Of a stretch of DNA of 32,766 nt, positions 1 to 7,879 are shown piece by piece. The position numbers and the translations under genes were made by a program. A model generated the notes under the pieces. The model was not told where the DNA came from and ran no database searches. It worked only from the letters and a program-made list of their open reading frames with translations. The DNA is from Sulfurovum sp. (GTDB lineage Bacteria > Campylobacterota > Campylobacteria > Campylobacterales > Sulfurovaceae): NCBI GenBank assembly GCA_024763175.1, contig JANTGA010000001.1, positions 1-32,766 on the forward strand, in the 5' to 3' direction. Within the stretch, counting starts at the first letter, position 1; each line of letters opens with the position of its first letter.

Positions 1-95
1 TATCAATGATTTTAGCAATAAGAGCCGTGTGACGGGAGACTGTCAAGCACGGTTCTGTGAGAGCCTTAAAGTGCGATTCTTTGGGGCTACTCGAC
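1..95 (+). mobile_element. 3' end of a group II intron (domains V and VI), cut by the window start
   Basis: Positions 22-55 fold as a 34-nt group II domain V. The outer arm GAGCCGUG pairs with CACGGUUC, the inner arm GACGG with CUGUC, a GAGA tetraloop closes it, and the unpaired side has the AAG bulge. The catalytic triad AGC lies at 23-25. Domain VI follows: 62-71 pairs with 79-88 as a 10-bp stem, and A89 stands unpaired seven bases before the intron end at C95. That is the expected place for the branch-point adenosine, and the AC ending is typical. The intron body and any reverse transcriptase gene would lie upstream of the window. The domains look intact, so splicing competence cannot be excluded. 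The call rests on folding by hand. Confidence 0.85.
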
Positions 96-1683: not shown

Positions 1684-3087
1684 CTACCCTCTCTGAAGCT
1701 CTTCTCTGATCCCCTCTGCCACTTTTTCTGCTCTGGCACCCAGTACGATCTGGATCGTGCTGTTGTCGGGGCGGATGATGCCGGCGGCGCCCAGTGTCTT
1801 GAATGCTTCGTCTTTGAGATCGGTACTGTTTTTGACCGTCATTCTCAGACGGGTGATGCATGCATCGGTATCGAGGATGTTGTCTCTGCCACCGAGTGCC
1901 TGAATGAAGGCTTCTGTTTCACTGTTTTGCTTTGCAGGGGCGGTCTGCACCCCGGCTCCTGCCTCATCTGTCTCCATCTCTTTGAAAAGATCAACTTTAA
2001 GATATTTGAGCAGCGTATAACCGACGACAAAATAGACAAAGCCGATGAGGAGACCCAGGGGAATGATCAGTAGGGGTTTGGTGGCGAGTTTGTAGTTGAC
2101 GATGTAGTCGATAAAGCCGGCCGAGAAGCCAAAGCCGGCGTGGATACCCAGGAGTTGTGCAAGGGCAAGTGAGAGTCCGGTGAGCAGAGCGTGGGCGATG
2201 AAGAGGACTGGAGCAACGAAGAGGAAGAGAAACTCGAAAGGCTCCGTGATCCCTGTCAAAAAGGAGGTGAAGGCGACACCGGCGAGGATGGCGCCGACTT
2301 TTTTGCGTTTGGATTTGGGAGTGTTGAGGTACATCGCCAGACCCAGTGCCGGCAGACCGAACATCATCACCGGATAGAAGCCCGCCATATAGATACCTGC
2401 TGTCTTGTCTCCGGCGAAAAAGCGATGCAAGTCGCCGTGGGCTACCAGGGTTTTGCCTGCCTGGATGTATTCGTAGTCTCCGAGCTGAAACCAGAAGACG
2501 GAGTTGAGGATATGGTGCAGACCCAGGGGGATCAACAGCCGGTTGAGGGTGCCGTAGATGAAGGTACCGATCTCTCCCAGCCCGATGATGGCATTGGAGA
2601 AGGCGTCGATACCATCCTGGATATAGTGCCAGTAGTATCCGGCCAGGACACCCACAAGAATCGCTGTGAGTGCCGTGATGATGGGGACGAATCGCTTGCC
2701 GCCGAAAAAGCCCAGAAATTCAGGCAGTTTGACGGTATGGAAGCGGTTGTAGAGGAGGCCGGCAAGCACCCCGATAATGATGCCGATAAAGACACCCATA
2801 TTGACTGTATCGTCGATAGAGATATAGACAGCTTTGGCGATCAGTACACCGATGGCACCGGCCAGTGCTGCCGCCCCATCGTGGTTTTTGGCAAGGCCAT
2901 AAGCGATACCGATACCAAAGAGAAGATCAAGATTGCCAAATACTGCATCTCCTGCCGCCTTCATGATCGCAGCACTCTGCCCTTCAAAGATATCGCCAAA
3001 ACCAAAACGAAGCAGGAGCGCGGCAATGGGAAGCACAGCGATTGGCGTCATCAGCGCCTTGCCTATTTTTTGTAAAAAACTGAGCAT
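1684..3087 (-). CDS. nagE: PTS N-acetylglucosamine-type permease, EIIC-EIIB (NagE-like, no EIIA)
   Basis: Takes up a hexose, most likely N-acetylglucosamine, across the inner membrane while phosphorylating it. The EIIC membrane domain spans about residues 1-365. It matches NagE closely by memory (LPIAALLLRFG, FGGKRFVPI, HGDLHRFFAGD, GITEPFEFLF, GIHAGFGFSAG). A polar linker at about 368-392 leads to the EIIB domain, whose phospho-accepting cysteine is Cys410 in DACITRLR. At 467 residues it is EIICB only. E. coli NagE is an EIICBA of about 650 residues, so the EIIA domain must be supplied in trans. The ATG at 3087 has AAGGAG eight bases upstream. No EI, HPr, EIIA or nagA/nagB gene is in the window. 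PTS permeases are unusual in Campylobacterota, so acquisition is possible. Glucose specificity is a weaker alternative. Confidence 0.88.
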   Translation of the reverse strand: MLSFLQKIGKALMTPIAVLPIAALLLRFGFGDIFEGQSAAIMKAAGDAVFGNLDLLFGIGIAYGLAKNHDGAAALAGAIGVLIAKAVYISIDDTVNMGVFIGIIIGVLAGLLYNRFHTVKLPEFLGFFGGKRFVPIITALTAILVGVLAGYYWHYIQDGIDAFSNAIIGLGEIGTFIYGTLNRLLIPLGLHHILNSVFWFQLGDYEYIQAGKTLVAHGDLHRFFAGDKTAGIYMAGFYPVMMFGLPALGLAMYLNTPKSKRKKVGAILAGVAFTSFLTGITEPFEFLFLFVAPVLFIAHALLTGLSLALAQLLGIHAGFGFSAGFIDYIVNYKLATKPLLIIPLGLLIGFVYFVVGYTLLKYLKVDLFKEMETDEAGAGVQTAPAKQNSETEAFIQALGGRDNILDTDACITRLRMTVKNSTDLKDEAFKTLGAAGIIRPDNSTIQIVLGARAEKVAEGIREELQRG

Positions 3088-3191: not shown

Positions 3192-3503
3192 ATGAGTGAG
3201 CTGGAATCCAAAATCGATCAATGGCTGGAAGAGGCGCAGACACTGCGAGATGAGTTGGCAGTCAAAGCCAATCTCGGCGTAGCGGAAGCCAAAGATGAAT
3301 TGGGAAAACTCGATGAGCAAATGGAGGACTTGAAATCCAAAGGCAAGCAGATCGCCAATATGGCCGGCGATACAGCCCAGGAGCTTCGTATCGCGGCCGA
3401 AATGGGGATCAAGTCTGATTCCAAAGAGGATTTGACTACTGCGCTTGAGTTGGCAGGAGAAGAGATCAAAAAGGGATATGAGCGAATAAAAAAGCTTCTG
3501 TAA
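3192..3503 (+). CDS. Small coiled-coil protein, unknown function
   Basis: A 103-residue, highly charged and almost fully helical protein without a signal peptide or membrane segment, so it is probably cytoplasmic. Heptad-like spacing (ESKIDQWLEEAQTLRDEL, ELGKLDEQMEDLKSKGKQI) suggests an antiparallel helical hairpin or oligomeric coiled coil, with a second helical part after about residue 70 (TTALELAGEEIKKGYERIKKLL). Two ATGs stand in tandem at 3189 and 3192; the AGGAG at 3181-3185 fits the second better. The gene stands alone, divergent from the NagE-like permease and convergent with the PilJ/NIT operon. It resembles small stress or envelope-associated helical proteins only in a general way. 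Confidence 0.65.
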   Translation: MSELESKIDQWLEEAQTLRDELAVKANLGVAEAKDELGKLDEQMEDLKSKGKQIANMAGDTAQELRIAAEMGIKSDSKEDLTTALELAGEEIKKGYERIKKLL

Positions 3504-3533: not shown

Positions 3534-4802
3534 CTATTGCGGAAGAGAGAGATGTTCAATAAAATCTGTTTCTTTCTCGTCTTCTTTAATGGTCGGAGCT
3601 GTAGAACTATTCTTTTTTTTAGTTTTTATCTTATTGCGTGTTGCTGCAGGGACAAATTTTTCAATCGGTTTTTTGAGTCTGGTAAAAAATTTTCCATAGT
3701 AGCCAAATAGAACAAAGAGTGATAATGCAAGAATCAACAGTACTCCTATACAAAGAAGGAGAAGAAGCATCTCTTTCTCTTTTTCTATAATATTTCTGGT
3801 TAAATTTTGGCTGATCAATAGGGATATGAAGCTCTCTTTTGTGAAGATGTTATCTAATTTTTCTGTCTCAGCCTCAACCCATTTGTCATTTTGGGATTCG
3901 CCCGCTGATTTCCCCGGAGAGCCAAAAATAACCTCCATCCTCGCCAGATCTATTTTTTCAAATAGTTTTTTATCAGCATTATTGGAATTTATAAATTTAT
4001 CAAAAGAGGTGTAATCTCTGACAACATCCAATCCAGGTAGATTATCTTTGGCGATAAGTTTGTTCCATATCTCTAAATCAGAATCAGAAAGAGAGGATCG
4101 GGTAGTTATTTTGTGGGATATGAAATCTCTTTCCACTACTGTATTTTCGTATGCTCTAATCAATTCAAGATAAACATTAAGCAACTCTGTACTTGGCTTC
4201 GATTTCTGTAAATTAGTAAAGATATCCGGATTTACGATTTCTATGTAGTGATAGAAATTGTTGTTAATATTCTGAATATCAATTTTCTTCTTTGCTCTAT
4301 CCATTTCATTCTTGATTGTACAACTGAATCCTTTCGCATACTCCACAAAAAACAACTTTTCAAATTTTATATCTTTGTGTTCAGGCTTTTTCTTTGTGGA
4401 CTCATCAACAAACAACTTTTCAAATTTTATATCTTTGCGTTTAAACTTTCTTCTGGTATTGTCCAGATTAGCAAAATTTTTAAGCAGGTTTTCACTCATC
4501 TGCCCGCTGTAGCCGTTTTTCAAATCAACTATTGCCTTATCTACACTTTTTTGTATCTCTTGTAGCTCATTTGAAATATTTTTTTCACTACTATTCAGGT
4601 ATTCAGTAGTTACTCTCCTCTCCTCATCTATATCAAGCAGTAGACTATTTAACGCTTTGATATATGCAAACTGTTTTTGGGAATCCATTAGTAATTTATG
4701 CTCTCCGACATCTTTGTGATAATGATAAGAGAGCACAACAAGCAGAGCAATAAATGGCAAAACAACTATGGACATAAAAATTTTATGGGTAAATATTTTC
4801 AT
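3534..4802 (-). CDS. Two-TM protein with NIT-like (nitrate/nitrite sensing) ectodomain, no output domain
   Basis: A 422-residue inner-membrane protein. TM1 is about residues 8-26. A long helical periplasmic region (about 30-342) follows, then TM2 at about 345-367 and a basic cytoplasmic tail of some 55 residues. The ectodomain has the shape of a NIT domain: an early helix with LDIDEERRVTTEYL, a second helix with LELIRAYENTVVERDFISH, a loop with SDSDLEIWNKLI, and a closing helix containing NDKWVEAETEKLDNIF. NIT domains normally sit on kinases, cyclases or chemoreceptors. Here no HAMP, kinase, GGDEF or MCP domain follows TM2. The middle carries a 20-residue duplication (KDIKFEKLF at 123 and 143). 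It is the last gene of the four-gene minus operon, overlapping its upstream neighbour by ATGA. The NIT assignment is by pattern and memory. Confidence 0.7.
   Translation of the reverse strand: MKIFTHKIFMSIVVLPFIALLVVLSYHYHKDVGEHKLLMDSQKQFAYIKALNSLLLDIDEERRVTTEYLNSSEKNISNELQEIQKSVDKAIVDLKNGYSGQMSENLLKNFANLDNTRRKFKRKDIKFEKLFVDESTKKKPEHKDIKFEKLFFVEYAKGFSCTIKNEMDRAKKKIDIQNINNNFYHYIEIVNPDIFTNLQKSKPSTELLNVYLELIRAYENTVVERDFISHKITTRSSLSDSDLEIWNKLIAKDNLPGLDVVRDYTSFDKFINSNNADKKLFEKIDLARMEVIFGSPGKSAGESQNDKWVEAETEKLDNIFTKESFISLLISQNLTRNIIEKEKEMLLLLLCIGVLLILALSLFVLFGYYGKFFTRLKKPIEKFVPAATRNKIKTKKKNSSTAPTIKEDEKETDFIEHLSLPQ
4350..4437. repeat. 60-bp tandem direct duplication inside the NIT-like gene
   Basis: The segment at 4350-4377 recurs exactly at 4410-4437, an offset of exactly 60 bases, with partly matching flanks (CTC at 4341-4343 and 4401-4403). 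It adds 20 residues in frame (KDIKFEKLF twice). The linker between the copies has diverged more than the cores. Confidence 0.9.
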
Positions 4803-5578
4803 TTTTTCTCAATTTTCTGATCGTCTTCAATAGAAGCACTTAGTGAACTAATATCTTTTTCAACTTTGGATGAGGCCAGAAGTATAATATGCTGTATTTT
4901 CATCTCATTGTATTGTATGTAGTATTTTTTTAAGATCTGCCAATCGTTTTTTACTTTAGTTAGCAATGCAATAGTTTTGCAGTTGTAATTATGTTTGCTG
5001 ATAAGAGATAGACTATCTTCTATCTTCTTGATGGCGTCATTTAGTATCTCAGTATAATTTATTGCACTGTTGTCTATCAAGATTGCCATATAGTACTTTG
5101 TTAGTCTCTCTATCAAAAAAGAGATATCATGGATCTTTATCAATACTCCTTCTTTGACCGATGGCACATACTTGATATTGTTGTTTATCGACTCTGCACC
5201 CTCGAGGATCACTTCACTATAGTCAAGCATCAGGGGAGGATTGTCTTTGCTGAATGGATCATTGAACACCTCTTCCATCGTCTCTCTGCTATAATCCAAA
5301 AAAGTAAGTATATCTTTTGACTCTTCATTATTTGTTGATCCAGATATTGCTTTATACTCTTTGTCGAGATCTTTCAGCTCTGTCTCTGCCAAATCTTTGA
5401 ATCTTGTTTTTTTCGGGTTAGCATAGTAGTAGAGATAATTTTTTGCAATCTTTTGACTAGCAATGCGGATATTTTGAGAAGCCTTTAAAAGTTGAAACTG
5501 ATTTTCTGTCGACTCGGCATATAGAAATGCTGAAAAAAGCAGAATAACTATGCCTCTATTTATAATAAACATTCTCAT
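4799..5578 (-). CDS. Exported PilJ/NarX-type sensor-domain protein, degenerate motifs
   Basis: A 259-residue protein with a signal peptide (about 1-21, ending LYAES) and a mature all-helical part. It aligns by eye with its two upstream neighbours. The first signature is degenerate (ASQNIRIASQKIAKNY at about 33-48, in place of AGRQRMLSQRMARDY). The second is nearly gone (IHDISFLIERLTKYYMA at about 149-165). It shares the 'ILEG' helix (LMLDYSEVILEGAESI) with the 269-residue paralogue. There is no C-terminal TM or output domain, so it is periplasmic or held by an uncleaved signal. The ATG at 5578 has AGGGAG four bases upstream. The gene starts eight bases after its neighbour and overlaps the NIT-like gene by ATGA. 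Loss of the motif suggests a changed ligand or a structural partner role. Confidence 0.65.
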   Translation of the reverse strand: MRMFIINRGIVILLFSAFLYAESTENQFQLLKASQNIRIASQKIAKNYLYYYANPKKTRFKDLAETELKDLDKEYKAISGSTNNEESKDILTFLDYSRETMEEVFNDPFSKDNPPLMLDYSEVILEGAESINNNIKYVPSVKEGVLIKIHDISFLIERLTKYYMAILIDNSAINYTEILNDAIKKIEDSLSLISKHNYNCKTIALLTKVKNDWQILKKYYIQYNEMKIQHIILLASSKVEKDISSLSASIEDDQKIEKK

Positions 5579-5586
5579 TTTTCTCC

Positions 5587-6396
5587 CTAATGCTCAACAT
5601 ACATTGCTACTACTCTATTCATTTTCGAAGTGATATCATCAGTAGTAGAGAATACGATTATAGGCAGTCCCCCTTTTTCTATATTCAAATAGAATTTATA
5701 AACTATATTCCACATTTTGTTTACCTGTTCCAGCTCTTTCTGTATCTTTGAGTTATTACTTTTCAGTTTGCTGAGAACCGTGTCAAATTCTTTGACACTC
5801 TCTTTCATCTGCACAATAGTATTCTTATCTTTTATACCGGCCTGATAGGCTATATAGTATTTTCCTATACGCTGCGAGAGCATTCTCTGTTTGCCGGCAA
5901 TATCTATAATCTTATTTGTAGCTTTTCCTTTGGTAAGTGCATTGACAATATAGTTGTACCCCTCAAGTATAGACTCACTCAGATCCACAATCAGTGCACC
6001 GTTTTCCGCACTGTATGGCTTATTGGAGATAGAGATAAACTCATCAAGGCTCATATTTACAAAGGCGATCAGATTTTTGATCTCTTTATCTTCAATCGTG
6101 TCATTGAGAAATTCCTGCATTTTTTTGAAGTCGGCGAGACTCTTTTTGAGTTGTCTCCGGGCATTGCTTGTGTTGACCTTCTTCCCCACATAAAAATAAT
6201 CCCTTGCCATTCTCTGAGAGAGCATTCTCTGTCTTCCGGCCAGATTGACCAGCTGCTCCTCGGAGATATCTGTCTGGATAGATTGGGTCTTCGCAGGGGT
6301 TGCAGGGGTCGCATTGGTATCAGCAGGCTGCCCGAAAGCGACGCCCCCTACAATGAGTGTTCCCAGTATTACATTTTTAGCTATTATCATGATCAT
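5587..6396 (-). CDS. Exported protein with two PilJ/NarX-type sensor repeats
   Basis: A 269-residue protein with a signal peptide (about 1-22) and a Pro/Thr-rich linker at 24-40. Two PilJ-type helical repeats follow, each opening with the family signature: AGRQRMLSQRMARDY at 53-67 and AGKQRMLSQRIGKYY at 167-181. In NarX/NarQ and PilJ this region forms the periplasmic four-helix sensor; in NarX the signature arginine contacts nitrate or nitrite. Here the two repeats stand alone, without TM2, HAMP or a signalling domain. The start at 6396 is fixed by AAGGAG six bases upstream. It lies in the operon with gaps of 10 bp (upstream) and 8 bp (downstream). The role is inferred as periplasmic ligand binding, possibly presenting ligand to a membrane receptor elsewhere. 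Confidence 0.78.
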   Translation of the reverse strand: MIMIIAKNVILGTLIVGGVAFGQPADTNATPATPAKTQSIQTDISEEQLVNLAGRQRMLSQRMARDYFYVGKKVNTSNARRQLKKSLADFKKMQEFLNDTIEDKEIKNLIAFVNMSLDEFISISNKPYSAENGALIVDLSESILEGYNYIVNALTKGKATNKIIDIAGKQRMLSQRIGKYYIAYQAGIKDKNTIVQMKESVKEFDTVLSKLKSNNSKIQKELEQVNKMWNIVYKFYLNIEKGGLPIIVFSTTDDITSKMNRVVAMYVEH

Positions 6397-6406
6397 ATTT
6401 TACTCC

Positions 6407-7186
6407 TTATTTTACATTTTCATATAGTTTTGTTACTTCGTTCATCTTTTTGGTAATCTTGTTGGATGAGCGTGCAATGAGACTCGGGATATATTTTTTT
6501 GACTTGGAAACGCCAAGAACTTCAAAAAACATAAAGTCTTTTTTGACGACATTGAGGCCATCTTTGATCTCTTTCGTATTTTTCGGAAAGGTTTCGAGTT
6601 TCTTCTGTGCAGTAGAGAACTGTTCCATCGCTTTTTTCATATCCGTATCGTTCATTCCTACGCCCCAGACCTTCAGCATATAGAGACTTGCCAGTCTCTG
6701 GGATAGCATCCTCTGACGGCCGGAGACATTGATGATCTCTCCGGTTGTCTCATTGGATGTTGCGGCGATAGCATTTGTAGCCTTATGTGCGGCTGCCAGG
6801 AGCTGATCGGTTGTTTTGAATACTTCGACTGCTTTATCCTTCTGCGGAGGGGAAAGCAGCTCTTTTTTGAGAGGTTTCCAGAGTTTATCGACTTCCTGCA
6901 TCGCTTCATAGGAGGCTTTGTCTTTGTCCTTGGTGAAGGCAAGCAAGTCTTTGAGAGTATAAGAGAAGAGATCAGCAGACTCCTGAAGTTCCTTTTGCGG
7001 GTTGCCGAATTTCAGTTTCATGCCTATCATAAAGTAGTCTTTATCCATGCGTTGCGAGAGCATTCTCTGTTTTCCGGCTTTGTTGATGGCTTCGTTCAAG
7101 TTCGAAATCTCTGCCTGCAAAGTTGTAGTTATGAAAATATTAAGTATTATCATACCAAGCATCATTTTTTTTGTATCCATTTTCAT
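6407..7186 (-). CDS. Exported protein with two PilJ/NarX-type sensor repeats (first gene of operon)
   Basis: A 259-residue protein with a signal peptide (about 1-25, ending LQAE). Two PilJ-type repeats open with AGKQRMLSQRMDKDY at 37-51 and SGRQRMLSQRLASLY at 155-169. A polar stretch with AVEVFKTTDQLLAAAH joins them. There is no second TM and no output domain, so it should be soluble in the periplasm. The upstream AGGA abuts the first ATG but is correctly spaced for the second ATG at 7180, so translation may begin with MDTKKMMLG. It is probably the first gene of the operon 7186-3534. It is related in architecture to the next gene, suggesting duplication within the cluster. Standard annotation would be 'type IV pili methyl-accepting chemotaxis transducer N-terminal domain protein'. 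Confidence 0.78.
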   Translation of the reverse strand: MKMDTKKMMLGMIILNIFITTTLQAEISNLNEAINKAGKQRMLSQRMDKDYFMIGMKLKFGNPQKELQESADLFSYTLKDLLAFTKDKDKASYEAMQEVDKLWKPLKKELLSPPQKDKAVEVFKTTDQLLAAAHKATNAIAATSNETTGEIINVSGRQRMLSQRLASLYMLKVWGVGMNDTDMKKAMEQFSTAQKKLETFPKNTKEIKDGLNVVKKDFMFFEVLGVSKSKKYIPSLIARSSNKITKKMNEVTKLYENVK

Positions 7187-7850: not shown

Positions 7851-7879
7851 ATTATAGCGGAGAAATTCTTGTTTGTCAA
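7851..7879 (-). promoter_or_regulatory. Full-consensus sigma-70 promoter of the tRNA operon
   Basis: On the minus strand, TTGACA (7874-7879) and TATAAT (7851-7856) are separated by exactly 17 bp, a perfect consensus pair. It points at the Lys-Glu-Val-Asp tRNA genes. The -35 hexamer overlaps the stop codon of the CinA-family gene on the same strand. Confidence 0.93.

Follow-up and report, generated by a model that had tools for sequence, protein, structure and literature searches.

A Sulfurovum operon of putative secreted PilJ-type proteins whose NIT membrane protein appears to have lost the kinase half present in most relatives

The window, that is, the whole stretch of DNA analysed here, comprises 32,766 nucleotides from the beginning of a contig of Sulfurovum sp. 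It contains four uninterrupted open reading frames, all encoded by the minus strand and transcribed in the order P1-P2-P3-P4, which are separated by gaps of 10, 8 and -4 bp and thus are as tightly packed as the initial annotation of this DNA had described. The features of the locus are as follows:

3192..3503, plus strand: syntenic neighbour, a 103 aa coiled-coil ORF whose DNA is 72% identical to that at the corresponding position of L039, the operon locus of the relative G002
3534..4802, minus strand: P4, a NIT protein with two transmembrane (TM) helices, 422 aa (PF08376, E 1.1e-5)
3534..3710, minus strand: lysine-rich tail of P4 after TM2, 58 residues (hydropathy, composition)
4353..4437, minus strand: in-frame direct repeat in the P4 ectodomain (read from the sequence)
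4799..5578, minus strand: P3, a predicted secreted, diverged PilJ-like protein, 259 aa (orthologues, alignment A4)
5587..6396, minus strand: P2, a predicted secreted tandem-PilJ protein, 269 aa (PF13675, E 5.5e-20)
6407..7186, minus strand: P1, a predicted secreted tandem-PilJ protein, 259 aa (PF13675, E 2.1e-21)

About 250 bp separate the start of the operon from an upstream region that contains a sigma-70 promoter and a tRNA Lys-Glu-Val-Asp array, and since no terminator-like site was found in between, read-through into the operon is possible. In eight loci of relatives, no such tRNA array lies upstream of the operon. The promoter itself, located upstream of the array (7851-7879, minus strand), is a perfect consensus, TTGACA-17-TATAAT. 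A PTS EIIC/EIIB permease (1684-3087, minus strand; PF02378, PF00367), which is unusual in Campylobacterota, is encoded in the window as well, and in G002 the permease adjoins the same operon. Among the neighbours, none hints at a ligand; the flanking conservation consists of lineage-specific housekeeping synteny only. Close to the first nucleotide of the window, which is also the first of the contig, there is a match to a group II intron in Rfam (61 bits; positions 20-95, plus strand).

Judged by the curated Pfam cut-offs (26.6 bits for PilJ, PF13675; 24.9 bits for NIT, PF08376), three proteins, namely all but P3, have significant PilJ or NIT matches. In P1 and in P2, the PilJ domain occurs as two repeats, with scores of 76.5 and 72 bits, and both P-boxes are intact in P1 (AGKQRM and SGRQRM; alignment A5) as well as in P2 (AGRQRM and AGKQRM; alignment A1). 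The GxxR motifs of these P-boxes are mostly invariant among relatives, and P1 as a whole is 80-82% identical to its G002 counterpart. The initial annotation had counted three PilJ-repeat proteins, which holds for P1 and P2, but not for P3 by domain score: it reaches only 12.2 bits (E 0.19) against the cut-off of 26.6, and merely 3 of 12 members of its family alignment attain a PilJ E-value of 0.1. By sequence homology, P3 is instead a diverged paralogue of P2, with orthologues in 25 of 60 relatives. It has kept a single P-box arginine, the first one (R38), and has lost R25, E32, E35 and a C-terminal YHSKNQ motif, all of which are conserved in the orthologues. As to export, hydropathy reveals strongly hydrophobic, signal-like N-terminal stretches in P2 and P3; the N-terminus of P1 reads like a signal peptide, yet stays under the hydropathy threshold applied.

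The fourth protein had been described as NIT-like with two TM helices, and both features are borne out: P4 scores 26.4 bits, a thin margin over the NIT cut-off, and hydropathy places two TM helices, with TM2 at about residues 346-364. Its ectodomain retains E61, E224, W246 and P256, which are conserved in nearly all relatives. The direct repeat has a 60-bp period, i.e., 20 codons, so that the sequence KDIKFEKLF occurs twice. AlphaFold2 (AF2) confidence is low over this repeat-bearing part and also falls toward the end of the tail, which is partly disordered in the model.

The folds predicted for P2 and P4 are of the helical-bundle type. In the AF2 model of P2 (pLDDT 85) there are eight helices, which we read as two four-helix bundles. 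Foldseek matches this model to McpN (6gcv; TMt 0.74-0.75, rmsd 2.4 A over about 125 residues) and the double bundle also to NasR (TMq 0.55), which is the top match of the P4 model too (4akk, E 3e-3). As helical bundles are common, E-values of such fold searches are weak and only the best-supported matches were used; a sequence search of solved structures with the NIT ectodomain returned no match. NasR, an antiterminator of the one-component type, has an ANTAR output. P4 resembles it in its NIT-like helical ectodomain, but is a membrane protein without output. With NarX/NarQ and McpN, P1 and P2 share the PilJ fold and the P-box GxxR, although the box reads AGKQRMLSQR here as compared with AGSLRMQSYR. 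In contrast to those receptors, two PilJ repeats are combined in one secreted protein that has neither a TM helix nor a transmitter.

The P-box GxxR is the nitrate-binding motif of McpN and NarX (PMC6381276, PMC8199190). In McpN, one nitrate is bound on the dimer axis, held by R61 from two monomers (PMC6381276); by analogy, a tandem PilJ repeat could provide two such arginines within a single chain. Not every NIT domain binds nitrate, as illustrated by the PA4520 receptor, which does not (PMC6381276). Searches for NapA gave no match in the genome of the window, which is incomplete, and none above cut-off in two near-complete operon-bearing genomes (G005, G017), and operon presence and NapA do not clearly track. 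Nitrate is thus not strongly indicated and is unproven as the ligand of the operon.

The distribution of the operon was surveyed by searching 60 related genomes and scanning GTDB contigs. It is widespread in Sulfurovaceae, as far as the inferred family assignment goes, and occurs in another family (labelled f6) within that taxonomic order. At least 60 loci of Campylobacterota share the P1-P2-P3-NIT arrangement. Among the 81 relative loci examined, profile annotation shows the four genes to be contiguous in 62, where the median distance between genes is 11 bp. The co-occurrence of the four genes and their order, which the initial annotation had proposed to survey, are therefore found in relatives, and the order is far above chance expectation. 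Gene 4 is complete in 61 relatives, and in 50 of these it encodes a NIT hybrid histidine kinase of 873-1127 aa; Pfam detects HisKA, HATPase_c and Response_reg in the gene-4 kinases tested (G002, G001 and G027). In G002, the NIT domain of this kinase scores 54.7 bits. Most commonly, the operon thus consists of secreted PilJ proteins together with a NIT hybrid kinase, and the system normally has an output module. This changes the view of the operon as one of stand-alone sensing halves: the statement that no output domain is present applies to the window's genome, but not to most relatives, and fails as a general description.

Variants of the gene set were also encountered. In G002 (L039, on the same contig as L107), the P1-P2 pair is duplicated in tandem before P3 and the kinase, and both P2 copies give identical scores against P2 of the window. 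In Gammaproteobacteria (Thiolapillus, Thiodiazotropha; L182-L185), P1/P2-like genes for secreted PilJ proteins are present too, some of them on their own, without an adjacent P3 or NIT kinase gene. A search for papers on Sulfurovum and PilJ or NIT domains found none, and the literature searched, which left most subscription journals outside its coverage, contains no description of the operon. Within these bounds, no account of the whole operon seems to exist; it would represent a sensory operon, shared by a large sulfur-associated group of Campylobacterota, in which a NIT kinase is accompanied by several secreted PilJ proteins.

Periplasmic capture of a ligand that is passed on to the NIT protein as membrane partner, as suggested in the initial annotation, is plausible. 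Domain types, export signals and the linkage of the genes speak for P1-P3 as periplasmic co-receptors that would contact the kinase ectodomain. Separate periplasmic proteins are known to act on membrane kinases in this manner, namely LuxP and TorT on LuxQ and TorS (PMC8534201) and GltB on the sensor kinase GtrS (PMC7927077). The putative arrangement is like these pairs in combining a separate periplasmic protein with a kinase ectodomain. It differs in that their partners are ligand-binding proteins of other folds, whereas here several PilJ-type bundles would meet a NIT ectodomain, with the kinase half gone in the window. Ancestrally, the genes would probably form a sensory operon of the two-component type, shared by Sulfurovaceae and a related family of Campylobacterota. 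Two to four exported helical bundles of the PilJ type (P1, P2, P3 and further copies) would serve in it as periplasmic ligand-binding co-receptors. Their ligand state would be read by the NIT ectodomain of the P4 kinase, and the signal would then reach the HisKA, HATPase and receiver domains in the cytoplasm.

In the window's lineage, this output half is missing. The closest syntenic relative, G002, encodes a kinase of 1040 aa as gene 4, and P4 aligns only with residues 18-378 of it, at 34% identity. The PTS permease and the 103 aa coiled-coil ORF adjoin the operon in both the window and G002, and the deletion is bounded by the coiled-coil ORF. Between P4 and this neighbour, tblastn and blastn detected no kinase remnant in any frame. 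The lysine-rich tail, which has no similarity to kinases, stands where relatives have the kinase and receivers. On its sequence, P4 amounts to a NIT hybrid histidine kinase reduced to its N-terminal half, with the cytoplasmic output half missing; without HisKA, HATPase_c and receiver domains, it is a derivative of the hybrid sensor histidine kinases and not a member. P4 matches were obtained in eight of ten genus members searched (the window's genome included), and among these the window copy is the only one that ends right after TM2. The presence of sensing halves alone is hence a derived state of this lineage.

Relocation of the kinase half was considered as well. The sole related kinase in the assembly lies at the edge of contig C12 beside lon and matches an unlinked NIT kinase which in relatives adjoins uvrC, and in Sulfurovaceae also lon; relocation was rejected on these grounds. 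It is very improbable, too, that the true genome has the full kinase and that the draft dropped its 3' half. The assembly is fragmented (154 contigs, 82% complete) and the species is represented by one genome, which would allow for such an error. However, the contig concerned is 101 kb long and has the junction in its interior, the tail continues the reading frame to a stop of its own and the next gene is syntenic. In the rest of the assembly, neither an orphan kinase of the operon type nor a NIT fragment was detected, and an artefact would not cause the changes in rate and base composition that run through P2-P4.

These changes were assessed with ileS as the control gene. In small trees with a single close relative, terminal branches of the window and G002 measure.055 and.039 for ileS,.161 and.119 for P1,.322 and.069 for P2,.82 and.203 for P3, and 1.316 and.284 for NIT. 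The window branches of P2, P3 and NIT are thus 4-5 times those of G002, and P1 evolves at the background rate. Third-position GC (GC3) is.365 in P3 and.33 in P4 of the window, as compared with.585 in the window's ileS and with.69 and.60 in the respective G002 counterparts; P3 and P4 have drifted toward AT in the window. The pattern of rates and GC fits relaxed or changed constraint after uncoupling. Because the NIT domain of G001 is about as fast (1.37) and its kinase is intact, speed alone is no proof of uncoupling.

With the kinase half gone, the operon is no longer able to signal in cis. The reading which we consider probable is that PilJ co-receptors and a NIT hybrid kinase formed the ancestral system and that the window holds an uncoupled derivative of it, either decaying or acting in trans: the kinase half would have been lost just past TM2, and an intact but uncoupled receptor would persist, most likely as a receptor under relaxed selection or one paired in trans with the unlinked NIT hybrid kinase. 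Decay and trans action are close to equally likely. If the operon became useless and is degenerating, with frames that a recent loss has so far left open, the fast branches of P2, P3 and NIT beside a P1 at background rate, the low GC3 of P3-P4 relative to G002 and to the rest of the window, the missing conserved residues and C-terminus of P3 and the in-frame repeat in P4 would all find an explanation. This possibility falls a little short of an even chance in our estimate, as the four frames are intact and tightly spaced, P1 and the P-boxes are conserved, the key NIT residues are kept and comparable kinase-less states are stable in other genomes.

Such states are indeed found elsewhere. In ten further loci, gene 4 encodes a NIT pseudokinase of 512-584 aa that is devoid of HisKA and ATP-binding motifs and whose cytoplasmic part is a degenerate HATPase in most cases. 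Pseudokinases of this size occur in f6, where a short NIT protein is present in all 12 genomes searched; the copy in G146 runs off the contig end. One genome of this family, G088, rated 100% complete, has an intact four-gene operon with a bare NIT protein of 330 aa, which stops about 24 residues past TM2. Operon output has thus been lost separately in at least one distant relative of the window's genome, and as the branch length and GC3 of the G088 protein are ordinary, a kinase-less form can be stable.

How such a form might work is suggested by the unlinked kinase. A separate full-length NIT kinase is encoded in all 12 f6 genomes searched, which makes a role in trans possible; the window's genome has one at lon. 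The short NIT protein could then heterodimerise with this uvrC-lon kinase and gate it by the ligand state of P1-P3. A precedent is ChrS of Corynebacterium glutamicum, a kinase that has lost catalysis and acts via its paralogue HrrS by heterodimerisation (PMC9491836). ChrS differs in that a frameshift in its CA domain arose in laboratory evolution, whereas entire cytoplasmic halves were lost in nature here, for which trans action is unproven. The ordinary G088 protein in its intact operon and the motifs still shared among the pseudokinases of the ten loci speak for this explanation. On the other side, Sulfurovaceae with a complete operon kinase also have the unlinked kinase, so that the co-occurrence is not specific, and the fast, AT-drifting P2-P4 of the window look more like relaxed constraint. 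We regard action in trans as a tentative explanation for the window; if it applied, the kinase loss would be a functional change rather than decay.

A broader version, in which PilJ and NIT proteins form a multi-subunit receptor class that repeatedly shed its kinase and docks onto a paralogous NIT kinase encoded elsewhere, seems rather unlikely, but would mean that the genes for sensing and for output behave as modules that can be separated and exchanged. The natural series of full kinase, pseudokinase and bare receptor offers a test of whether kinase-less receptors act through paralogues. In the C-terminal half of the pseudokinases (L131, L129, L140 and others), a DLPLTN linker and NIAQKK-ESA are common motifs, which may indicate that the dead kinase domain has taken on a new function. 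The window's own genome encodes a further PilJ protein of 302 aa (contig C7, L037:7661-8569; E 4.7e-19), adjoining a protein of 102 aa that has a haem-like CxxCH motif.
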